Virus record (IMG/VR): IMGVR_UViG_3300025012_001961
Location: 1-23,679 of that record
Length of the DNA stretch: 23,679 nucleotides
Origin: a virus
Reading direction: 5' to 3' (one strand)
This document shows, in pieces, positions 3,018 to 18,292 of the stretch. Positions within the stretch are counted from its first letter, which is position 1; each line of letters starts with the position of its first letter. The notes beneath the pieces were generated by a model. The model had not been told where the DNA came from, made no database searches, and saw nothing but the letters and a program-made list of their open reading frames with translations. Position numbers and translations under genes: made by a program.

Positions 3018-5201
3018 CTACTTTTTCGCTTTTATATAATATGCAACTGTCTTAGAGACAGGTTTTGTTTCTCCACCACCTTGCTTTAATGATGTTATAG
3101 CGTAAATTCTATCGCCAGTAGAATAATCTTGAAAATCATTATCTCCATCTTTTTCTACTGAAGCAAAATCTTTTGAAGGATCTCCAATATTTCCACCATT
3201 ATAGACTTTTGAAAAAATCGTTTGTGATCCTGAACCTCTCAAAAACATACCTCGCAAGTCTGGTAAATTGAAAGTTGTTATTGAATCACCTGCACCCCAA
3301 GTGATACTAATAACACTGAATAAGTCAGGATAATCAGTTCTTTTAACAGCAGAACCATCACATAACAAATACTTATTTGATATATTTGAAGGAATACCAG
3401 CCAAGATTTTAATTTCTCCAACCAAAATATTGTCGTTTATCTTTGCATCTACAAAAGTTTCTTTTGCTACTTTTTCCCATCCGAAATTACTTGCACTGTC
3501 AGTAGAGAATACTCCTAAATTATTTGAAACGCGAGTATGTTTGCTTCCGTTATCAAAAGTGATTTCTTGAGTAATGTAATCCCCACCATCTCTTTTATCA
3601 TTGTAATATACAGTCAAATAGTAGTTGTATAAAGCAGGAGAGTGATTTGTTGTTGTATTATTAGAATAACCTCTATAATTTCCTGGTGTTTTTATTGTAT
3701 TTAAATCATCATTGCCTGTTAAAAAAATACCTTTGTCAGCATATAGTTTCGCACTATTTAAAGTACTTAAATCTTTATTGTCAATATCAGTTCGATTATA
3801 AGTTTCTGATTTTTGATAAAATGCTCCAAAATGTTTGGAATCATGACTATTTATCTGTAAATCTGTATAATTATTAGACGTTGTTACCGCATTCGTATTT
3901 TTATTGTCAATATCAGTTCGATTATAAGTTTCTGATTTTTGATAAAATGCTCCAAAATGTTTGGAATCATGACTATTTATCTGTAAATCTGTATAATTAT
4001 TCGAAGTCGTCACAGCAGTCGTAACATCGTTTATATTTGCAGTTCTAAGCCATCCAAAATTAATTGTGCTATCAGTAGAAAAATTTCCTAAATTATCGGA
4101 TGAACGAGTATATTTATTTCCATTGTTAAAAATTATTTCTTGAGTAAAAAAATCCCCACCATCTCTTTTATCATTGTAATATACAGTCAAATAGAAGTTA
4201 TATAAAGCAGGAGAGTGATTTGTTGTTGTATTATTAGAATAACCTCTATAATTTCCAGGAGTTTTAATTGTATTTAAATCATCATTGCCTGTTAAAAAAA
4301 TACCTTTGTCAGCATATAGTTTCGCACTATTAAGAGTCGTTAAATCTTTATTGTCGGTTTCTACTCTTGAATAAACAGATATATTATTTCTTGCTATTGA
4401 AATATTATATAAATCAGATAGATTGTTGTTTTTGTTTAACATATTTTTTGGTGAATAATCTATCCAATTCAGAAAAAAATTATTGCTGTCCGTATATCTA
4501 TAAAATATTTCTCCTGCGAACGAATAGAACAATTGATATAATCTGCTCTCTATTAAAAATACGGATAATCTGAATTGCCAAGCCACTGGTGCTTTTTGTG
4601 TCATATAGTTTAACGTTGGTTTACTTTCAATAGAATCATACCAACCAAAATAAGTACCAGCACGAGTTATTTCATCCAACGATTTTGTTTCAGGAATTTT
4701 ACTACCTACAAAAAAATTATCGAAAGATTGTATTTTTCTCACTCTTGACAAATCTATTTTATCTATGTTTGACTCAGTAATATAAAGATCACACAAAAGA
4801 GTTCCTATGTCGATTAATCCATGTGGAGTTGTTTCAAAAAATATATTGAATTGATAAGAGTCTTCTTTATTATATAAAATTGTTTGATTTTTGCCATCAA
4901 CAATAGGAGTTGAATATATTTCTTTTGGAAGAACAAAAATACTTAAAACTTTTGTTTCTGTTGATGTGAATGGTGATATATCTATTTCATCACTTGTAAT
5001 TGAAAGTTTCTTGCCGTTTTTGTAACCTAAAAAATTTGAGATTTTTAATTTTTTGTCAACAAGTTGAATGTCTTTTGATACAATTCCATCCTTTACTATA
5101 AAAGAGATATTCTCTTCAATAATTGTTTCAATGTCTGTTTGAAGTTTATTTAAATGCGTATGCTCTAATGTTTGGTCTATATAAAAGTTTTGTTTTATCA
5201 C
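3018..5201 (-). CDS. tail fibre with repeated knob-like domains and tail collar domain (727 aa)
   Basis: This is the receptor-binding fibre. Residues 1 to about 180 form the baseplate-proximal part. A first knob-like segment follows (DEITRAGTYFGWY). Two nearly identical modules then carry DDLNTIKTPGNYRGY, a pyocin-knob-like signature, near residues 285-380 and 478-575. Between them lie two tandem copies of a 42-residue unit (AVTTSNNYTDLQINSHDSKH...). The last 140 residues hold a phage tail collar domain (LLCDGSAVKRTDYPDLF, TTFNLPDLRGMFLRG), which usually forms the fibre tip. The start overlaps the upstream gp48-like stop as ATGA. The repeats are near-identical at DNA level, so copy number may change by recombination. 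No adjacent DNA invertase or reverse transcriptase is visible. Confidence 0.9.
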   Translation of the reverse strand: MIKQNFYIDQTLEHTHLNKLQTDIETIIEENISFIVKDGIVSKDIQLVDKKLKISNFLGYKNGKKLSITSDEIDISPFTSTETKVLSIFVLPKEIYSTPIVDGKNQTILYNKEDSYQFNIFFETTPHGLIDIGTLLCDLYITESNIDKIDLSRVRKIQSFDNFFVGSKIPETKSLDEITRAGTYFGWYDSIESKPTLNYMTQKAPVAWQFRLSVFLIESRLYQLFYSFAGEIFYRYTDSNNFFLNWIDYSPKNMLNKNNNLSDLYNISIARNNISVYSRVETDNKDLTTLNSAKLYADKGIFLTGNDDLNTIKTPGNYRGYSNNTTTNHSPALYNFYLTVYYNDKRDGGDFFTQEIIFNNGNKYTRSSDNLGNFSTDSTINFGWLRTANINDVTTAVTTSNNYTDLQINSHDSKHFGAFYQKSETYNRTDIDNKNTNAVTTSNNYTDLQINSHDSKHFGAFYQKSETYNRTDIDNKDLSTLNSAKLYADKGIFLTGNDDLNTIKTPGNYRGYSNNTTTNHSPALYNYYLTVYYNDKRDGGDYITQEITFDNGSKHTRVSNNLGVFSTDSASNFGWEKVAKETFVDAKINDNILVGEIKILAGIPSNISNKYLLCDGSAVKRTDYPDLFSVISITWGAGDSITTFNLPDLRGMFLRGSGSQTIFSKVYNGGNIGDPSKDFASVEKDGDNDFQDYSTGDRIYAITSLKQGGGETKPVSKTVAYYIKAKK
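3578..4331 (-). repeat. long direct repeat (offset 573 bp) of the knob module in the tail fibre
   Basis: Bases 3578-3758 match 4151-4331 with only a handful of substitutions. The two copies are offset by 573 bp, exactly 191 codons. Protein similarity extends further, through the strand-rich block that ends ...TDSxxNFGW. Together with the 126-bp tandem repeat this shows serial in-frame duplication in the fibre shaft. Confidence 0.88.
3774..4001 (-). repeat. tandem 126-bp coding repeat in the tail fibre
   Basis: Bases 3774-3875 and 3900-4001 are identical over 102 bp with a 126-bp period, equal to 42 codons, so each unit adds or removes an in-frame block. The 24 bp between copies differ. It lies within the fibre, at about residues 400-476. 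Confidence 0.9.
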
Positions 5202-8567: not shown

Positions 8568-9218
8568 TTAGTTCCCATCCGTCAAGCTGTTTCTGTCAAG
8601 TCCATATTGTTTTAATCCTAAATTATCTCCATCAACAAAACCATTTTTCGAGATAGATTCTTTTTTCTTCTTTTCTTCTTGCACTTTCAGATATTCATCT
8701 TGAGTGAATTTTTCATATTTTACTGGTTGAAACTCAGTAAACTCCAAGTCAACGTAGATGATATTATCATACTCATCATCTTCTTGACTGTCAAAAGATG
8801 CGAAAATCGTTTGAGAAATATTTCTTGCTTTTGTGTGTTCTGATACTATTGTCCAAATCTCTGGAGTATCTCCTTTCTCAAAAAGTTTTTCTAATTCTTC
8901 TAATTGTTGATATGCTGTTTTTCCTTTTTTTGTTGTAAAATTCGTTACTCCTTTTATAAATTTTTTCCCTTTCCTAAAAGTAGTTGAACCTTCCTCATAC
9001 GCAAAATCTTGGTCTATTAGTTTTAGACTGATTTTTACTGTTTTGGGGTCAAATCCCAAAACTATCGCAGCTTTGTTTTGATGAGAGCTTTCTTTTTCGT
9101 GTCTCTCATAGAGTATTTTCCCTCCAACTGAAATGCCTGTTATTATACCAGGGAGAGTTACATTTTCTCCAGATTCTCCTTTTAATAAAATAGGATATTC
9201 ATTTTTTTTAAATTGCAT
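8568..9218 (-). CDS. tail/baseplate protein in the Mu N (gp43) position (216 aa)
   Basis: It overlaps the tape-measure stop by 11 nt. It starts with a strand-rich domain (YPILLKGESGENVTLPGIITGISVGGKI), has a Lys-rich middle, and ends with a Lys/Glu-rich linker (LKVQEEKKKKES) and a short Gly/Asp tail. Mu has its DNA-circularisation/tail protein N here, and PBSX-type elements have an XkdP-like tube-hub linker. The visible domain could be the tube-like N-terminal domain of either. There is no LysM motif. Role inferred from position only. Confidence 0.5.
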   Translation of the reverse strand: MQFKKNEYPILLKGESGENVTLPGIITGISVGGKILYERHEKESSHQNKAAIVLGFDPKTVKISLKLIDQDFAYEEGSTTFRKGKKFIKGVTNFTTKKGKTAYQQLEELEKLFEKGDTPEIWTIVSEHTKARNISQTIFASFDSQEDDEYDNIIYVDLEFTEFQPVKYEKFTQDEYLKVQEEKKKKESISKNGFVDGDNLGLKQYGLDRNSLTDGN

Positions 9219-11799
9219 ATATTTCTTTCCCTTCTTTTTCTAACATCATTAGAAATCGTTTTATTGAGTTTAAGTCGTCTAAATCTGACGCTTTTATATT
9301 TACTTCAATTTTTGTGTTTTTATTTATGGTTGTTTTTGAGTTATTTGTGTTATTGTTTTTTTTACTTAAAATTTGATTAGTTTCTTTGTTGGTGTAAACA
9401 TTTGTGCCTTTTGATAAATGTAAAAGTTCTGGTCCTTTTTCGCCAACTAATGCAAGCCCACCACCAAAATTTCTTACCCCTGTTGCAAACGCAGGTATTG
9501 GTTTTATGTTGAAGCCGAAACTTTGACCACCAACGCCAGGAAGCCATTTAGGGAAATCAATTTTGATACTATTAAGACCTGCAATAAGTCCGTTAATTGG
9601 TGCTATGAAAATATTTCCAAGACCTTTTAAACCACCTATCAAATTTTCAATTTTGAATGTTTCTGTTATCACTTTCCAAATTGATTTAATCCCAGTTTTA
9701 ATATCATTTAAATTAAATTTAAATGATATATGATTGTTACCAAAAATGTTTTTTAATAGAGAGTCAACGCTTCCCATTGCAGATTTTATTTTCCCTCCAA
9801 AAAAATCAAATAAATAATTTTTTATTTGTGATACTTTTTTTATTATTTTTTCAATAATTTTGGCTATAACTGGAATTATTGCTTCAAAACCATTTTTTAT
9901 AAAACTTGGGATATTTAAGAAAAAATCTCTTATATTTAAAATTGTTTTAAAAAAGAAACTTCTTATTGCTAATATTTTATCTTGAATTGGTTTTGGTAGA
10001 CAATCAAAAATAGATTTTACAAATCTATAAAACATTTTAAAAGGTTCTACTAAAATAGAAAAAACTGCCTTGATACCAGATGAGGCTATATTAAAAATGC
10101 CACCTAAAATATTTCCTTTTTTTATTTTTTCAATACCAGTTTGTATTGATTCAAAAAAAGATAAAACTGCATTTTTTAAAGCGATTATAGGTAAAAATAA
10201 ATGCCCAAATAAAACAAATAAAGGTTTTGCATATTTTGGAATTCTATCAAAGAGTGATTTGAATGTCACTTCTATTGTTTTGTATGGTGCTGAAAAAATA
10301 TCTATTAATCCACCTATTATATCTCCGTCACCAAATTTCTTGAAAGCACTTTTAAACGAACCTATAAAAGTATTTATTCCTTTTAACCAACTAGTTAAAA
10401 CAATTATCCAAAATCCTGTTACTATTCCAAATAAGAAACCAAAACCAAAACTTACCCAATACACAAAGTCGTCAAATTTATCTGTTGCCCCACCAAAAAT
10501 ATTTTTAAAGAAATCTTTCAAAGGACTAAAAGCCTCAAGGAAAGTATTTTTTAGTATTTTTAGTTCGTTTTTTAATGGATTAATAAGATTATTCCAACTA
10601 TCTTTTATAATATCAAAATGCTTATTGAGTGAATATATTGCAGCAGCTAATGCTACTACACCTACAATAATCCATGTAAGAGGATTTGTTAATAATGCAG
10701 CAGTAAATCGTAGGACTGCAGGTATTGCTTGCTTCAACAGTGTTTGAGAAAATGCTTTTATTCCCCATATCGTCGATGACATTTTACCCATCCCCATACC
10801 TTGAGCCGTCCACATTGCCATCTGTGCGTTTTGGAATGCAGCAGTTGCAGTTACATTTTGCCACAAAGAAGTAGTAAGCATTGAAAAAGATTTTTTTAAC
10901 ATTCCTGCATTAGTTATTAGAGTAGTCTTTATTTTTGAAATATTAGTATATAATAGTAATAATAATCCAAGTGGGACTAACAATATAGTGACAGTCCCAA
11001 GAAATCCCATTATAATAGAAGAAAGTATAGGATGAGCGTCTCCCCACTTTGCTAAAGCATTCAAAATAGAAGTTATTGAGTTTACAACAGTTTTTGTCGG
11101 TTCTAAAAATACTTTTCCATAAACAGATGCAAATCGCAATACAGAACCTCGAAGGTTTGACATTGAGCCTTCAAAGGTTTTAGACATCTTTTCCATCATA
11201 CCAGAAAAGTTTTTATTTTTTATTACAGTATGTATGGAGTTCATCATTTCTTCAACAGTTGCCTCAGCAACATCTTTCCCAAGTGCTTTGTTCCAATCTG
11301 CTTTTGTGACTAACAAGTCTTGAAACATCATCAATGCTTCGCCTTTTTGTCCAGAGTTGAGTTTTTTTATAGCATTTCCAACTTGATCTAAAGGTTTTCT
11401 TGCACCAGCTGCTAAGTCTCCTAAGTCGGTCATCATTTGTATTGAGTATCTGCCAACAGTTTGTAAAGAGTTGCCAAATTCAATAACATTGTCTAGGTCA
11501 AATGGTGCTATGTCTGAAAAAGTATCGAGTTCTTTTAGTCTTTGCTTAGCTAACTCAGTATCTCCAAGCATGACTTCAAGTTGACTTAGATAACCCTCCA
11601 TCTTGCCAGCAGCAGAAACAAAACCTGCACCTGCAATAATGCCAGCAGTCCCTACACCAATGAGTCCATGAGAAAACTTTGAAATAGTTTCGTTCGCTCT
11701 CTCAAGTGAGTTCACTGATGAGACTACTTTTTCCATTGGATTTGAGAATTTATCGATTAAATTTATTATTACGCCAACACCAAAAAGTTTATCAAGCAT
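9208..11799 (-). CDS. tail tape measure protein (863 aa)
   Basis: This is the largest gene. The protein sets tail length and is released or inserted on infection. An N-terminal helical domain of the TP901-type core is visible (GYLSQLEVMLGDTELAKQRLKELDTFSDIAPFDLDNVIEFG, GSMSNLRGSVLRFASVYGKVF). Several strongly hydrophobic stretches follow (for example around residues 260-285, 370-390 and 445-475), then repeated F/I-rich helices. The C-terminus carries FATGVRNFGGGLALVGEKGPELLHLSKG, the usual 'A.G..nf..G..aLVGE.GPEl..l..G' end. Its ATG (11799) lies inside the last codons of the frameshift extension of the chaperone, so translation is probably coupled. Confidence 0.95.
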   Translation of the reverse strand: MLDKLFGVGVIINLIDKFSNPMEKVVSSVNSLERANETISKFSHGLIGVGTAGIIAGAGFVSAAGKMEGYLSQLEVMLGDTELAKQRLKELDTFSDIAPFDLDNVIEFGNSLQTVGRYSIQMMTDLGDLAAGARKPLDQVGNAIKKLNSGQKGEALMMFQDLLVTKADWNKALGKDVAEATVEEMMNSIHTVIKNKNFSGMMEKMSKTFEGSMSNLRGSVLRFASVYGKVFLEPTKTVVNSITSILNALAKWGDAHPILSSIIMGFLGTVTILLVPLGLLLLLYTNISKIKTTLITNAGMLKKSFSMLTTSLWQNVTATAAFQNAQMAMWTAQGMGMGKMSSTIWGIKAFSQTLLKQAIPAVLRFTAALLTNPLTWIIVGVVALAAAIYSLNKHFDIIKDSWNNLINPLKNELKILKNTFLEAFSPLKDFFKNIFGGATDKFDDFVYWVSFGFGFLFGIVTGFWIIVLTSWLKGINTFIGSFKSAFKKFGDGDIIGGLIDIFSAPYKTIEVTFKSLFDRIPKYAKPLFVLFGHLFLPIIALKNAVLSFFESIQTGIEKIKKGNILGGIFNIASSGIKAVFSILVEPFKMFYRFVKSIFDCLPKPIQDKILAIRSFFFKTILNIRDFFLNIPSFIKNGFEAIIPVIAKIIEKIIKKVSQIKNYLFDFFGGKIKSAMGSVDSLLKNIFGNNHISFKFNLNDIKTGIKSIWKVITETFKIENLIGGLKGLGNIFIAPINGLIAGLNSIKIDFPKWLPGVGGQSFGFNIKPIPAFATGVRNFGGGLALVGEKGPELLHLSKGTNVYTNKETNQILSKKNNNTNNSKTTINKNTKIEVNIKASDLDDLNSIKRFLMMLEKEGKEIYAI

Positions 11800-12085
11800 C
11801 GTTATTGTTTCCGTTAAATCCCTTATTCACTGCAAAAGCAATCAAATTAAACCAGTTTTCTTCTATCATTTCTGCTTCTACATATTTTTGACACAGATCA
11901 TCGATTTTCATTTTTTCAGTATTGGAATGAGGTATAAAAGTTTTGACTTTTACCCTCATTTTTTTTAACAAACTTTCTTGAAAATCTTTTTTGTAAGTTT
12001 TTAGTTTTTTTTCGATTGAGTTGTTAATTAGAGATATAGCCCAATAAGCACCCTCACGAGTGCTTAGTTCTATATCTCTTCTGCT
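11792..12085 (-). CDS. -1 frameshift extension of the tail chaperone (97 codons)
   Basis: This frame has no start of its own. It opens in the -1 frame directly after the slippery site and runs 97 codons from AGC (12085-12083) to TGA (11794-11792), overlapping the tape-measure ATG. The peptide begins SRRDIELSTREGAYWAISL and has two helical parts with KMKIDDLCQKYVEAEMIEENWF. This is the pattern expected for the 'T' domain of G/GT-type tail chaperones, which binds the tape measure while the G domain binds tube protein. The full fusion would be 212 + 97 = 309 residues. Absence of stops over this length in AT-rich DNA, plus the signal at 12031-12091, makes a real coding extension likely. Confidence 0.88.
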   Translation of the reverse strand, partial: SRRDIELSTREGAYWAISLINNSIEKKLKTYKKDFQESLLKKMRVKVKTFIPHSNTEKMKIDDLCQKYVEAEMIEENWFNLIAFAVNKGFNGNNNDA

Positions 12086-12091
12086 AAAAAA
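12031..12091 (-). promoter_or_regulatory. programmed -1 ribosomal frameshift signal
   Basis: Reading 5' to 3' on the minus strand: slippery heptamer T TTT TTA (12091-12085, correctly phased), spacer GCAGAA (6 nt), then a two-tier hairpin. The outer stem is GAGATATAG (12078-12070) with CTATATCTC (12039-12031), 9 bp. The inner stem is TAAGCACTC (12066-12058) with GGGTGCTTA (12053-12045), 9 bp including one G-T wobble. It is capped by GTGA, a GNRA tetraloop. A 3x5 internal loop separates the tiers. The 0-frame stop TAG (12072-12070) is in the outer stem, so non-shifting ribosomes end while melting it. Heptamer, spacing and structure match known bacteriophage and viral -1 signals. Confidence 0.9.
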
Positions 12092-12720
12092 GAGTCTGTA
12101 AGTCCTGTTTCTGCCATGAGTTCGTTGAACAGTGCAAAAGGTAAACCAGGTCTATCTTCAGTTATTTTCGCAAAGTTTTCTTTGTCTGAAATAATAATGT
12201 TTTTCATTATGTTACTTTCAACAAAAGTAACATATTCTTTTTTGTCTTTAGTCATTGTATCAAGAGTTGTCTCAATTGTTTCACTTTGAAGTTTTTCAAA
12301 ATAGAAAGTTTCTTTTTCATTGAAAAGTTTCACTACTTCAATTCCGTTTTCGATATGTCCTTTTACCATTTCTGGCAAAATTTCATCTGTCAAACTCACT
12401 GCTTCAACAGTGAACTTTTCAGAAATTCCAGTCTTGTCCAAAATTTCAGAGTACATAGGAGCGAAAAGACCTGGTTTGTTTTTTAATAAAGTTTCAAATT
12501 CTTCTACTTTTGGATAAATGATAGATTTTTTTATTTGATTTTTCATCAAAGCGGAGAATTTCTCTCTACTATTTCCAGCAGAAGATATAACTCTTCTTAC
12601 TTCTGGTTTGGTGAGTTTAGCAAAATAAAAATCACCAAGTCTATTAGACAATTTTATAATTTTTCTTCCTCTATTTTTTGCGTCTATTACGATTTGTGGT
12701 ATTTCTTTGTTTTTATTCAT
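12070..12720 (-). CDS. tail assembly chaperone (G-type) with internal duplication (216 aa)
   Basis: This gene lies between tube and tape-measure genes, where Mu has gp41 and most long-tailed phages have the G/GT chaperones that coat the tape measure during tail assembly. The protein is two copies of one domain: residues 7-103 and 115-211 align without gaps at an offset of 108. Shared landmarks are IP..V/LP..V, KLSN/KLFN, DFYF/TFYF, N-I-K (NQIKKSII/SNIMKNII), KPGL/RPGL and TGISEKF/TGLTDSF. Copy 1 is encoded at 12702-12412 and copy 2 at 12378-12088. The second copy ends on the slippery site, so a -1 shift swaps the last four residues for the extension at 11792-12085. Confidence 0.85.
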   Translation of the reverse strand: MNKNKEIPQIVIDAKNRGRKIIKLSNRLGDFYFAKLTKPEVRRVISSAGNSREKFSALMKNQIKKSIIYPKVEEFETLLKNKPGLFAPMYSEILDKTGISEKFTVEAVSLTDEILPEMVKGHIENGIEVVKLFNEKETFYFEKLQSETIETTLDTMTKDKKEYVTFVESNIMKNIIISDKENFAKITEDRPGLPFALFNELMAETGLTDSFLAEEI

Positions 12721-12732
12721 ATTTTCCCTTTC

Positions 12733-12936
12733 TTATAAACTTCTTATAAAAAAATCAGATGCTTCATTTAAATGTTTCAAGCATTCTGTTTTATTTGTAT
12801 TGTTGAACGTTGTTTCATTAATTAATTCTTTAATGCTTTCGATTGAAAGAATGACTCTTTCTGCTTGTGCTTTTTTGTTATTTGGTAAACTTTCAATTTT
12901 ATTTTTTAATTCTTTTATTTTTTTTTCGTGAAACAT
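12733..12936 (-). CDS. small helical protein between tube and chaperone genes (67 aa)
   Basis: AAGGGAAT-type ribosome binding sequence precedes the ATG, and the gene fits tightly between its neighbours (12-nt gaps each side). It is entirely helical by eye: a Lys/Glu-rich first helix (KKIKELKNKIESLP), a long second helix (KKAQAERVILSIESIKELINE), a short polar loop (TTFNNTNKT) and a third helix (ECLKHLNEASDFFIRSL). The helix-loop-helix with 'CLKHLNEASDFFI' loosely resembles the hairpin of Acb2/Tad1-type phage anti-defence proteins, which sponge cyclic nucleotides. That likeness is weak. It could equally be a tail assembly helper. Confidence 0.6.
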   Translation of the reverse strand: MFHEKKIKELKNKIESLPNNKKAQAERVILSIESIKELINETTFNNTNKTECLKHLNEASDFFIRSL

Positions 12937-12948
12937 TTATTCCCTTTC

Positions 12949-13407
12949 TTATAACATCCCAGCAGGATCATGTAGTCCGCTTGCTGTTACATCTTTTACT
13001 CCACCAAGTATATTAAAATCCAATTTTATTGTTTGTTCTCCGTCATCTGTAGAACCAAAACTAAAACCATCAAAAGCAATTTGCATAAGCATAAAGCCAA
13101 TCGGCGGTTCTTCATCGTTTGCAAAACTAACAACAATATTTGTTGCTTGAGGTTTCATTTTATATAACCCATCTTCAACTTTTGATGCAGCAGTAACCTG
13201 TGTCCAAGTTTCTAAAAGGATTTCTAAAGAACCATTGCCTTCGAATTTACCTCTTACATATGCGATAGCTTTTGCACTACCTAAAGCGTAAACTGCTTTA
13301 CTTGGTTTTTTGTGAGAAAAATCAATCTTTTTTACTCCAAAGATAAAACCCATTTTATTACAAACTACTGAAATATCTTCGTGTGAGAATACTTTTCCAT
13401 TTATCAA
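12949..13407 (-). CDS. tail tube protein (152 aa)
   Basis: It directly follows the sheath gene, as in all contractile tails. The fold is strand-rich with one helix. Landmarks are MINGKVFSHEDI at the start, ALGSAKAIAYVRGKFEGNGSLEILLETW in the middle (the 'G....G.l.i...e' strands of tube proteins) and IAFDGFSFGSTDDGEQTIKLDFNILGG near the end. Length is normal. It polymerises into the inner tube around the tape measure. Confidence 0.82.
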   Translation of the reverse strand: MINGKVFSHEDISVVCNKMGFIFGVKKIDFSHKKPSKAVYALGSAKAIAYVRGKFEGNGSLEILLETWTQVTAASKVEDGLYKMKPQATNIVVSFANDEEPPIGFMLMQIAFDGFSFGSTDDGEQTIKLDFNILGGVKDVTASGLHDPAGML

Positions 13408-13420
13408 CTTTTAAATCTCC

Positions 13421-15013
13421 TTATTCCTCAAAAGGGTTGGCGTATTTGAACATGAAATTGAGTTTCATATTTTTTATTATAGGTATTCCATAAAGTACCA
13501 AATTAAAAACTAATCCATTATTCACAATATCTTGGTTTGGTGGTATTATTACTTCAAAAGAATCTAATTCTTTTGGACTTGCGGATGTCATTGTTGATAT
13601 TGCAGTAATAATTTCTGCATGTGCATTTGTGATACCTGCAGAGTCTCCTTCAGACTGTAAATCTTTTAAAGCACCAACTCTTCCAAGTCGAATTGCTTTA
13701 AAAACGGTGTCTACAATTTCTATATATTTGTAGTCAGATGTATCTTCTGCTAAAGTATTACCTCTCGCAAAATACAATGAGTTAAGCCCTTCGAGTCTTC
13801 TAAGTACTACAAAACCAGCATCGTTTAAAATTGTTGAATGTGTATTTGTCCAGCCCTGAGGAAGTTTAACATTGCTTATTGGAAACTTTTTAACTTTTCC
13901 TATTGACTCATTAACTCGAGCAGATGCAATAGTGCCAGCCATCACACCCGAGTAATTTCTAACTTGAGAAATTCCTGTTTTTTCTATAACTTCACCATAC
14001 CCAGCACAAACAGCCACAAATCTATGACTAAAAGATTGTCTTTCTTTTACGAGACTATTTACATAGTTTGAAATGTCTTCTTTTATAAGTAAACTAATTG
14101 TTTGTGTCTTTGTTGCATTGTTGTTTATTTCAACAGATGTTGGACTTAATATTTTTGTAATAATCGTGTTTGTAGGAATTCCATCACCTGTAACACTGCA
14201 ACCTTCAACAAAATCATCTGTTTTTGACAATCCTGTTATTATTTTTGTACTGATTGTAATAGTACCATTTCGCTTTATTGCTTCTATTTTTTCTCGAGTA
14301 TCTGTTATAAAATATGTTGGTTTATGCAAACTAAAAAGTTCATCTGCTTTCATACCAAAAGTAACCCAATGAAGCGAATCAGTATCTTGACATACATATA
14401 CGTAACGAGGTGTATATAATTCAAGACCAACTTCAATAGCTTCTATCAATGCTGTAATACCACTCTTTGGTGATATTGTTTTTAAAAAATATCTATCGCC
14501 AGTTACAAAACTTTGAGATGGAGTTGTGAAGTTGGCAAATGTCACTACGATTCCTGCTATCTCTACATTTACTTTTCCATCAACGGGCATTGTGAATGGA
14601 GACATCCAATTATCTCCTCCATCAATTGATATTTTTGCCGTTGCTTCATTTAATGCACCACCAGATAAAATTTGAATAACAATATCTGTGTCACAAAGAC
14701 TATTTCCTGTTACTGTATATGTTGCTTTTCCTGTACCTTCAAAAATAATTTCTCTGATTTCTCCTGCAATGTCTTTTTCAGAAGGTATTGCAATTACAAT
14801 TGCTTCCTCCTGTAATACAGAGAAAAAGTCTTTGATTTTATCTGTTAATCTACCTTCGCCAAGTTCTTTTTTATAGTCTGAGTTTTTCCCAAAAGTATAA
14901 ATTTTATTTTCTATGCCTTTGGAACACGTACCAACAAAGATATATTTTTCTGCTTTCGTTGGAACTTGCCCAGAAACTCCATCAATGATGATTTCTTGAA
15001 CATCAATAGTCAT
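13421..15013 (-). CDS. tail sheath protein with an inserted beta domain (530 aa)
   Basis: This is the contractile sheath. Residues 1-85 carry the conserved start (VPTKAEKYIFVGTCSKG). Residues about 88-182 form a beta domain also seen in other prophage sheaths (GTGKATYTVTGNSLCDTDIVIQIL ... SIDGGDNW). Residues about 183-247 continue the core. Residues about 248-310 (14084-14272) look like a separate inserted module: TISTKIITGLSKTDDFVEG, VTGDGIPTNTIITKI, VEINNNATKTQTISLLI. The core then resumes (RQSFSHRFVAVCAGYGEV, LNDAGFVVLRR, ARGNTLAE) and ends with the C-terminal strand (IIKNMKLNFMFKYANPFEE) that links to tube and neighbours. Start overlaps the previous stop as TAATG. Confidence 0.88.
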   Translation of the reverse strand: MTIDVQEIIIDGVSGQVPTKAEKYIFVGTCSKGIENKIYTFGKNSDYKKELGEGRLTDKIKDFFSVLQEEAIVIAIPSEKDIAGEIREIIFEGTGKATYTVTGNSLCDTDIVIQILSGGALNEATAKISIDGGDNWMSPFTMPVDGKVNVEIAGIVVTFANFTTPSQSFVTGDRYFLKTISPKSGITALIEAIEVGLELYTPRYVYVCQDTDSLHWVTFGMKADELFSLHKPTYFITDTREKIEAIKRNGTITISTKIITGLSKTDDFVEGCSVTGDGIPTNTIITKILSPTSVEINNNATKTQTISLLIKEDISNYVNSLVKERQSFSHRFVAVCAGYGEVIEKTGISQVRNYSGVMAGTIASARVNESIGKVKKFPISNVKLPQGWTNTHSTILNDAGFVVLRRLEGLNSLYFARGNTLAEDTSDYKYIEIVDTVFKAIRLGRVGALKDLQSEGDSAGITNAHAEIITAISTMTSASPKELDSFEVIIPPNQDIVNNGLVFNLVLYGIPIIKNMKLNFMFKYANPFEE

Positions 15014-16722: not shown

Positions 16723-17250
16723 TTAGACCTCTCTTATCTCACCACAAATTACATCCCCATCCTTTACACCAAGTTCTCTCACTTTTTTGTTGTATGCTAC
16801 AAGATTTTCTGGTCCTAAAAACATTATACACCCCGCAGAATAACAACATCCTACTGCTTTACCTTTGTGTTCGTCACTATGTCCAAGGTATCTTCCTTTT
16901 CTAATGCCATCATCTATTTGCGTACTGTCTTCTTTGATGTATTGTCCTTCAATGTCATAACAGTCGAAAATTCCGTGAATATCTTCAGTATACGCTCTTT
17001 TTTCAACAAAGTGTTTCATCTTGAATTTGCCTGGTGCTATTGTATCATCGTAAGAGTCAAACAAGTTGTAGTTAGATACGGTTTGCATTCTTTTATGTCT
17101 AAAAACTTCTTTCCCATTTTGGTATAAAATTAAAGTGTCTAAAGAATTGTTTTTTGAGTTATTCGCTAAGTCATTCCTTTTAGAATTGTACTTATAATCA
17201 TAACTCTTTTTATTTCTTTCAATTATGATAGATAAATCATCTCTTATCAT
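16723..17250 (-). CDS. endolysin candidate with Ser-x-Gly-Cys site (175 aa)
   Basis: This is the best candidate for the peptidoglycan-acting enzyme, since no classical lysozyme or amidase is seen here. A strand-rich region (LDTLILYQNGKEVFRHKR ... DTIAPGKFKMKHF) leads to HSDEHKG (124-130) and GCCYSAGCIMF (134-144). The spacing of a His and an S-x-G-C is like YkuD-type L,D-transpeptidases and DUF5675-type phage proteins, which share 'H......S.GCI'. The cassette (holin-like, small proteins, lipoprotein, then this) supports a lysis role. It has no signal peptide, so export by the holin would be needed. A tail-associated or non-enzymatic role cannot be excluded. Confidence 0.5.
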   Translation of the reverse strand: MIRDDLSIIIERNKKSYDYKYNSKRNDLANNSKNNSLDTLILYQNGKEVFRHKRMQTVSNYNLFDSYDDTIAPGKFKMKHFVEKRAYTEDIHGIFDCYDIEGQYIKEDSTQIDDGIRKGRYLGHSDEHKGKAVGCCYSAGCIMFLGPENLVAYNKKVRELGVKDGDVICGEIREV

Positions 17251-17408
17251 TTGTCATACTCCTCCTCAATATACTGTTTTTCAAGTAGTTCTTGAGCTTC
17301 ATCGATTTTTTGTTTTGCTAACTCAGTTGTGTTTGAGTTACTATTTTTTTTGATGATTGAGCTAACACCAATTAATATTTTACTCAATCTGTGCCATAAA
17401 TTATTCAT
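17247..17408 (-). CDS. small amphipathic protein in the lysis cassette (53 aa)
   Basis: I place the start at 17408: an AGGAG with suitable spacing precedes it, and it overlaps the lipoprotein stop as TAATG. A longer frame upstream would lack this. The N-terminus (LWHRLSKILIGVSSIIKK) is an amphipathic or weakly hydrophobic helix with basic residues that could lie on a membrane. The rest is an acidic helix (ELAKQKIDEAQELLEKQYIEEEYDK). It is coupled to the endolysin candidate by ATGA overlap. It may be a spanin-like or lysis-timing protein; no family is recognised. Confidence 0.6.
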   Translation of the reverse strand: MNNLWHRLSKILIGVSSIIKKNSNSNTTELAKQKIDEAQELLEKQYIEEEYDK

Positions 17409-17914
17409 TAAAAAACTCCTGTTTTTTTCTCTCCACCAAATATAAATCCTACTGTAAAACCAGCACCAGCACCCCAATCAGGATAAAATTTTAAATTGAT
17501 TTCAGGTGATAAAAATATGTTTTTTATAGGAAAATAATAGAATTTGAGAGAGGCATTTGCATCTAAATATAATTTACTATCTATTAAAAAATTAGCACCA
17601 ACACCAAATCCCCAACGTGGTCGCCATTCTTTTTGAGTTTCTAAAAAAGTAACATTGCTTTTTAATTGCTCTGCTCTTTTAAGCGATATTTTTCTTGCTG
17701 TTTGATAGAGAGTTCTATATCCTTTGGCAATGCTTTTTGCTTCTTGATATTTGCAGAACTTCTCAAACTCATTCATTTGCCACCATGTTTTTTTTGTGGT
17801 AGTCTTTTGCCACCACGGTTTTTTTTGAGTTTGATTCTCTTGTTTTTCTTGACAGGTAAGACCAAAATTAAAGACTATTAAACTTAGCGTCAATATCAGT
17901 AGCAGTTTTTTCAT
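17408..17914 (-). CDS. exported lipoprotein-like protein of the lysis cassette (168 aa)
   Basis: A strong AGGAGGAG lies 7 nt before the ATG. Residues 1-21 form an N-terminal signal (MKKLLLILTLSLIVFNFG) followed by LTC, a relaxed lipobox. Residues 33-47 hold a paired motif (PWWQK, TWWQM) joined by Thr/Lys. A helix with KRAEQLKSNVTFLETQKEW follows. The C-terminal 65 residues alternate aromatic and small residues (WGFGVGANFL, LYLDANASLKFYYF, FLSPEINLKFYP, GAGAGFTVGFIFGG), like four to six outer-membrane beta strands. In this position phages normally carry outer-membrane spanins, so this could be an unusual spanin that reaches the outer membrane. The role is inferred from the cassette. Confidence 0.65.
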   Translation of the reverse strand: MKKLLLILTLSLIVFNFGLTCQEKQENQTQKKPWWQKTTTKKTWWQMNEFEKFCKYQEAKSIAKGYRTLYQTARKISLKRAEQLKSNVTFLETQKEWRPRWGFGVGANFLIDSKLYLDANASLKFYYFPIKNIFLSPEINLKFYPDWGAGAGFTVGFIFGGEKKTGVF

Positions 17915-18008
17915 TTGCTTTCTCCTCCTTTTCTGTGTTCTTTAATACTTCATTTGTTTTATCAATTTGTTGTTGTTTTTTATCAAAAAGTCCTTTAAAT
18001 ATATTCAT
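17868..18008 (-). CDS. very small lysis-cassette protein overlapping the lipoprotein gene (46 aa)
   Basis: The ATG at 18008 overlaps the holin-like gene's stop as ATGA, and a GGAGGT lies 11 nt upstream. The frame reads MNIFKGLFDKKQQQIDKTNE, an acidic-basic helix, and ends at 17868. Its last 47 nt overlap the start of the lipoprotein gene in another frame, and that gene's ribosome binding site is inside it. It has no membrane segment. It could be a leader that couples translation of the lipoprotein to the holin, or a short regulatory partner. Confidence 0.5.
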   Translation of the reverse strand: MNIFKGLFDKKQQQIDKTNEVLKNTEKEEKANEKTATDIDAKFNSL

Positions 18009-18292
18009 TGAATTTCACTACCTCCGTTTTTCCCTAAAAAATTATTAATTAAAGGTGAAAATTTTGTTATTGCATTTGTTCCTAAATAAACGCAAGTAAT
18101 GATTCCCCACCAAGAACCATCGAGTCTTCCAAGAAAAATTAAAACAGTCGCAATAATCCAGACCATTAATTTTTTAGGTATCATTTTATTGAAGAAAAAA
18201 TCTAATTTTTGAGAGATTGGTTTCTTTTTCGTTGTATTAACATACTCTTCGAGTTCGTGTATTTCTTCTTTTGTAAGACTTGTGTCACTCAT
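18005..18292 (-). CDS. holin-like small membrane protein (95 aa)
   Basis: A charged N-terminal part (residues 1-40) precedes two hydrophobic segments (about 42-60 LMVWIIATVLIFLGRL and 62-80 SWWGIITCVYLGTNAI). A short polar C-terminus follows. This size and layout with two membrane segments is typical of phage holins. The position at the head of the lysis cassette supports this. Start is preceded by AAGGA in the previous gene's last codons and separated from its stop by 1 nt. No family-specific motif is recognised. Confidence 0.65.
   Translation of the reverse strand: MSDTSLTKEEIHELEEYVNTTKKKPISQKLDFFFNKMIPKKLMVWIIATVLIFLGRLDGSWWGIITCVYLGTNAITKFSPLINNFLGKNGGSEIQ

Follow-up and report, generated by a model that had tools for sequence, protein, structure and literature searches.

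The locus and its sequence features

The locus described here lies in a 23,679-base stretch of virus DNA with a guanine-plus-cytosine (GC) content of 29%, recorded in IMG/VR as IMGVR_UViG_3300025012_001961 and referred to below as the window. Its subject is a putative tail assembly chaperone gene whose end carries the elements of a programmed -1 ribosomal frameshift. The standard genetic code applies throughout the window, with TGA serving as a stop, and the late genes, nearly all on the (-) strand, belong to a prophage that has a contractile tail and head genes of the Mu-like type. The features of the site, with lengths in amino acids (aa), nucleotides (nt) or base pairs (bp) and the basis of each in parentheses, are as follows:

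12070..12720, (-): 0-frame open reading frame (ORF) of the putative tail assembly chaperone, 216 aa, with two tandem domains of ~100 aa (ORF; PF20941, phrog_20303; position of homologues)
12085..12091, (-): slippery heptamer T TTT TTA, phased for -1 slippage (sequence; heptamers at the equivalent place in relatives)
12079..12084, (-): spacer GCAGAA, 6 nt, or 5 nt with an extra A-U pair (sequence, fold)
12070..12072, (-): 0-frame stop TAG, within the 5' arm of the outer stem (sequence)
12031..12079, (-): two-tier stem-loop, comprising an outer stem of 9-10 bp, an internal loop, an inner stem of 9-10 bp and a GUGA tetraloop (fold)
11792..12085, (-): extension in the -1 frame, 97 codons and a TGA stop, which would form the T-like portion of the fusion (profile, alignment)

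On the (-) strand, the 0-frame ORF ends in ...GAC TCT TTT TTA GCA GAA GAG ATA TAG. A preliminary description, made from the letters of the window, had placed a T TTT TTA heptamer here in the right phase, followed by a 6-nt spacer and two 9-bp stems capped by GTGA, with the 0-frame stop inside the outer stem, and each of these details was borne out: the heptamer occupies 12091-12085, its codons TTT (12090-12088) and TTA (12087-12085) are in the frame of the 216-aa ORF, the spacer is GCAGAA (5 nt if the extra A-U pair predicted by RNAfold is counted), and TAG (12072-12070) lies 19 nt beyond the heptamer. The -1 frame likewise runs for the 97 codons claimed and terminates at TGA 11794-11792, overlapping by 8 nt the tape measure gene, whose ATG is at 11799. 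The predicted fusion would thus be 309 aa in length (212 + 97).

The same description allowed that any single element might be due to chance, and for the heptamer this is correct. With a GC content of 29% and 11 in-frame copies of TTTTTTA in the genes of the window, the heptamer alone is uninformative; heptamers of the general form X_XXY_YYZ number 155 in 7035 codons. Of the seven heptamers located 33 nt or less from the end of a gene, only the one at 12085-12091 precedes a strong fold.

The two-tier hairpin

The outer stem pairs GAGATATAG with CTATATCTC over 9 bp, and the inner stem pairs TAAGCACTC with GGGTGCTTA over 9 bp, including one G-U pair, around a GTGA loop of the GNRA type. RNAfold adds one pair to each tier (the A-U pair in the outer stem, for 10 bp), giving a 20-bp stem-loop of -27.3 kcal/mol with z = -5.6, which none of 200 shuffled sequences equalled. 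It is the most stable fold among 9448 overlapping 60-nt segments of both strands, and its z-score is the best across the 155 heptamer sites (-6.7, with a runner-up of -4.9). The structure begins 5-6 nt after the heptamer, within the 5-9 nt required of a stem-loop that stimulates -1 programmed ribosomal frameshifting. As such, the stem-loop is likely to be the stimulator of the shift.

When the best of 15 windows was taken at each locus, a choice that inflates the scores, z was -8.5 here and about -3 to -5 in seven relatives identified below (L006, L007, L009, L010, L017 at -2.9, L018 and L028). In several of these relatives, too, the 0-frame stop lies within the hairpin or at its edge, hinting at an arrangement that recurs. 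In the alignment of extensions, ~23 residues of the window (LSTREGAYWAISLINNSIEKKLK) are missing from the relatives, and the distal part of the hairpin is encoded within this insert; we infer that the hairpin stimulator was gained in the window's own lineage. A close relative with an alignable hairpin was not found in scans of viral contigs or in searches of Spirochaete genomes, where the close records are all identical at the site.

Other identities for the structure were considered and rejected. It is not a dispersed repeat, with one full copy in the host genome, and not a terminator, as it lacks a T run and no terminator-like site is present on the (-) strand of the region. An apparent likeness of the inner stem to the controlling inverted repeat of chaperone expression (CIRCE) operator was dismissed as coincidental, the loop having 4 nt rather than 9. 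Scans of the window for Rfam families and tRNAs were empty.

Conservation of the -1 frame and alternative explanations

The decisive evidence for a frameshift is comparative and does not lie in the heptamer. When 393 genomes of the Spirochaete phylum were searched, first with the chaperone and later with an alignment of nine rows, chaperone homologues came to light at 10 loci in 8 other Spirochaete genomes. At all 10 loci, a -1 frame downstream of the chaperone stays open for 73-95 codons (measured from its upstream stop), and a correctly phased X XXY YYZ heptamer lies near the 0-frame stop. The heptamer is TTTTTTG in L006, L007 and L010, TTTTTTA in L009, AAATTTT in L008, L017, L018 and L028 (and, one codon upstream, also in L009 and L010), and AAAAAAG in L029 and L030. 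Beyond the Spirochaetes, the gut phage Mushuvirus has AAATTTG and Flavobacterium phage FPSV-S27 has AAAAAAG, each with an open -1 frame as in the window. The suggestion in the preliminary description that a U UUU UUA type of site is less usual therefore fails among the chaperone's relatives, four of which have TTTTTTA/G, while GGGAAAG occurs in none of those examined. A limited literature search, which does not establish absence, found no relevant case of TTTTTTA in phage tail genes. Heptamers are freely exchanged (TTTTTTA/G, AAATTTT, AAATTTG, AAAAAAG) at a fixed place.

That place is closely defined. The heptamer precedes the 0-frame stop by 19-22 nt in the seven relatives from the first search and in L028, and by 10-16 nt in L029, L030, Mushuvirus and FPSV-S27. 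The open -1 frame begins only 0-27 nt ahead of the heptamer in nearly all of the Spirochaete relatives, which confines the shift to the short overlap around the heptamer.

The heptamers bear directly on transcriptional slippage, by which the polymerase would gain or lose a base on the T6 run and ribosomal slippage would not be needed. Slippage on homopolymers is known to offer another way to such a product, and the genome is AT-rich with a run of six T's at the site. However, known slippage runs are longer, exceeding seven for A and eight for T (PMC3711429), and relatives with AAATTTT or AAATTTG at the same place have no run of six or more. The downstream hairpin would, moreover, have no role. 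Given the short T run and the relatives that have no such run, we consider transcriptional slippage very improbable.

When the -1 extensions of L006, L007, L009 and L010 were combined into a profile, the window itself being excluded, its best match among 634 frames was the -1 frame of the window (E = 2.7e-15, against 1.4 for the runner-up), and the extension alignment contains a conserved AEW-like motif. The profile match shows that this frame encodes a conserved protein. Conservation of this frame in relatives had been set beforehand as a test of the preliminary description, whose central claim of a programmed -1 frameshift in a tail chaperone is now strongly supported by the conserved heptamer position, the open -1 frame and the sequence of its product.

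The same layout speaks to the possibility of a decayed gene or an assembly error, in which a one-base indel would have split a once-continuous chaperone. The site is indeed a homopolymer run in a metagenome-derived contig, yet the same sequence is present in three records (the window, L002/L003 and MIAN01000104.1), though possibly from one sampling source. Because homologues in other genomes share the two-frame layout, with different heptamers, such an error is scarcely credible and the least probable of the alternatives. The chaperone gene is 100% identical in MIAN01000104.1 (the metagenome-assembled genome Spirochaetes bacterium GWB1_27_13) and IMGVR_UViG_3300024999_003445, as are the extension, tube and tape measure genes. 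Scans of viral contigs with the chaperone, sheath, capsid and two relatives' chaperones returned either a window-identical record or nothing; a scan with the tape measure returned the same identical record plus one distant locus (L039). The window's chaperone had no match in the phage collection.

Finally, the two frames might be separate genes, with the -1 frame having its own initiation or being reinitiated after the 0-frame stop. Phages often have overlapping genes whose translation is coupled, an AUA codon in the window's -1 frame overlaps the 0-frame stop, and in the Thermus and Meiothermus relatives the two frames bear separate gene annotations. However, no ATG, GTG or TTG was found in the -1 frame near the junction; the first ATG or GTG is the internal Met of ...SLLKKM, far downstream, with a TTG Leu just upstream of it, and the homologous part of the extension starts well ahead of this Met. 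AUA makes a very poor start codon, and among the relatives the codon at the overlap may be AUA, GUA, CUA or UUA. Without a start codon or a conserved overlap codon, independent initiation has, in our estimation, only a slight chance of being correct.

Tail gene order and the duplicated chaperone domain

The window and its relatives have the gene order sheath, tube, chaperone and tape measure in common. In the window, the genes accompanying the chaperone are as follows:

13421..15013, (-): contractile tail sheath, DUF2586 (PF10758, 8e-57; phrog_907 tail sheath, 1e-49)
12949..13407, (-): tail tube protein (phrog_4579 tail protein, 4.2e-10; adjoins the sheath)
9208..11799, (-): tail length tape measure protein, 863 aa (PHROG tape measure matches, best 7.7e-23)

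The chaperone ORF sits between tube and tape measure, as in loci of the phage lambda G/GT type, and its homologues occupy the same position. The ORF itself is a tandem duplication, with copy 1 at about 12720-12385 and copy 2 at about 12384-12073 on the (-) strand, and the copies align gaplessly across 102 aa at 25% identity (E 2e-15). The region of copy 1 weakly matches phrog_20303 'minor tail protein' (1.9e-6), and copy 2 weakly matches PF20941, a domain of unknown function (DUF6848; 1.6e-6). The relatives examined have a single copy of the domain, in contrast to the two of the window. Where copy 1 ends, the corresponding codons read GAA AAG TTC ACT GTT and no longer form an X XXY YYZ heptamer; hence, only the last copy keeps a slip site. 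A single-sequence AlphaFold model of the chaperone was unusable (predicted local distance difference test, pLDDT, 37.7).

The duplicated chaperone domain and the unusually strong, lineage-specific hairpin are what distinguish this locus. It is tempting, though doubtful, to join them: a G domain duplicated in tandem, with the slip site only after copy 2, may have gained an HIV-like two-tier hairpin in a lineage-specific insert, perhaps retuning the ratio of G to GT. A slip site confined to the end of the last copy provides a small natural experiment on the setting of chaperone stoichiometry.

Interpretation and comparison with known systems

The shared layout makes a lambda-type explanation the most likely, and we hold it highly probable that this tail-chaperone locus contains a genuine programmed -1 frameshift of the G/GT type. 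G/GT frameshifting is widely conserved among long-tailed double-stranded DNA phages, different phages using -1, -2 or +1 shifts; in lambda, many G are made per GT, the two share a part that binds the tape measure, and the T part binds the tail tube subunit (PMC5009743). In the window, most ribosomes would terminate at UAG and release the G-like chaperone of 216 aa. A smaller share, held up at the stem-loop while UUU occupies the P site and UUA the A site, would slip one base back on U UUU UUA and read 97 more codons, producing a GT-like fusion of 309 aa, a product for annotators that ordinary gene calling overlooks. If the two products act as in lambda, the part they share would coat the tape measure protein and the extension would bring in tail tube subunits, with the shift rate setting the ratio of chaperone to fusion. 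The short 0-frame product and longer fusion predicted here correspond to gpG and gpGT. The window differs from lambda in its U UUU UUA heptamer (that of lambda is GGGAAAG), in the very stable two-tier hairpin that follows it and in the tandem duplication of its 0-frame product.

Human immunodeficiency virus 1 (HIV-1) gag-pol has the same heptamer, a short spacer and a stable stem-loop, a likeness of form only and not of common descent. E. coli ribosomes shift on U UUU UUA with the HIV stem-loop at rates like those of eukaryotic systems (PMC7282821), and the form of the window's signal is thus compatible with bacterial ribosomes. Another example of a heptamer with a downstream stem-loop acting on bacterial ribosomes is seen in E. 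coli dnaX, where the heptamer is A AAA AAG and a Shine-Dalgarno-like stimulator lies upstream; the window has AGGA 11 nt upstream, which is only a candidate stimulator.

Mushuvirus, Meiothermus MMP7, Thermus Riverbug and Flavobacterium FPSV, all phages with a DUF2586 sheath, share the window's order of sheath, tube, chaperone and tape measure, and none is annotated as having a joined frameshift gene in the records examined. MMP7 and Riverbug (L034 and L035) have homology to the window's chaperone by tblastn, which includes a weak match to an 'XkdN-like' protein of MMP7. Their open frame is +1, unlike the -1 of the window, which suggests +1 or -2 recoding within the same family and agrees with the range of shifts described for other phages (PMC5009743).

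Several points weigh against this interpretation. In E. coli constructs, U UUU UUA shifted less readily than A AAA AAG (PMC5009743). The closest named families of the putative chaperone are a DUF and a 'minor tail protein', and its assignment draws on position and on homology to the XkdN-like annotation. Furthermore, the hairpin does not align with any structure in the relatives, several of which have weak or no local structure (z of -0.3 in L008, -1.3 in L029, -0.6 in L030 and 0.1 in FPSV); what points to a stimulating role is its position and stability. The locus is of a long-known kind of tailed-phage recoding and leaves the understanding of recoding unchanged, while adding a documented tail-chaperone case from uncultured Spirochaete prophages.

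Other features of the window

Between the tube and chaperone genes lies a 67-aa ORF (12733-12936, (-)) in the frame of the chaperone, for which tblastn found no counterpart in the relatives' loci. It ends near an in-frame T7 heptamer, without structure there. Head-side Pfam matches include Mu F-like and Mu Gp36, with a weak match to capsid protein E and a Mu-like protease narrowly below the Pfam cut-off. Further tail genes encode a Dit-like protein (below the cut-off), baseplate J and a collar-domain tail fibre (3018-5201, (-)), whose translation contains, by eye, internal repeats of NAVTTSNNYTDLQINSHDSKHFGAFYQKSETYNRTDIDNK and a longer repeat of ~100 aa. A group of small genes without Pfam matches (16723-18292, (-)) lies between the head and neck genes; one has a signal-peptide-like start and one is membrane-like, and the group may be a lysis cassette in an unusual location.

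The second most stable cluster of folds in the window, at 1690-1750, overlaps an inverted repeat of 15 perfectly paired bp (AAAAGATGGCTGTCT/AGACAGCCATCTTTT, 1693-1727) where the (-)-strand late operon ends, and this repeat is probably the operon's terminator. At the left end of the window, the C-terminal part of a beta-ketoacyl synthase (11-391, (+); PF02801, 3.7e-22) is probably host DNA flanking the prophage or a cargo gene. Finally, a D12-class adenine methyltransferase (1731-2546, (-); PF02086, 4.8e-28) is encoded at the tail-fibre end of the prophage.
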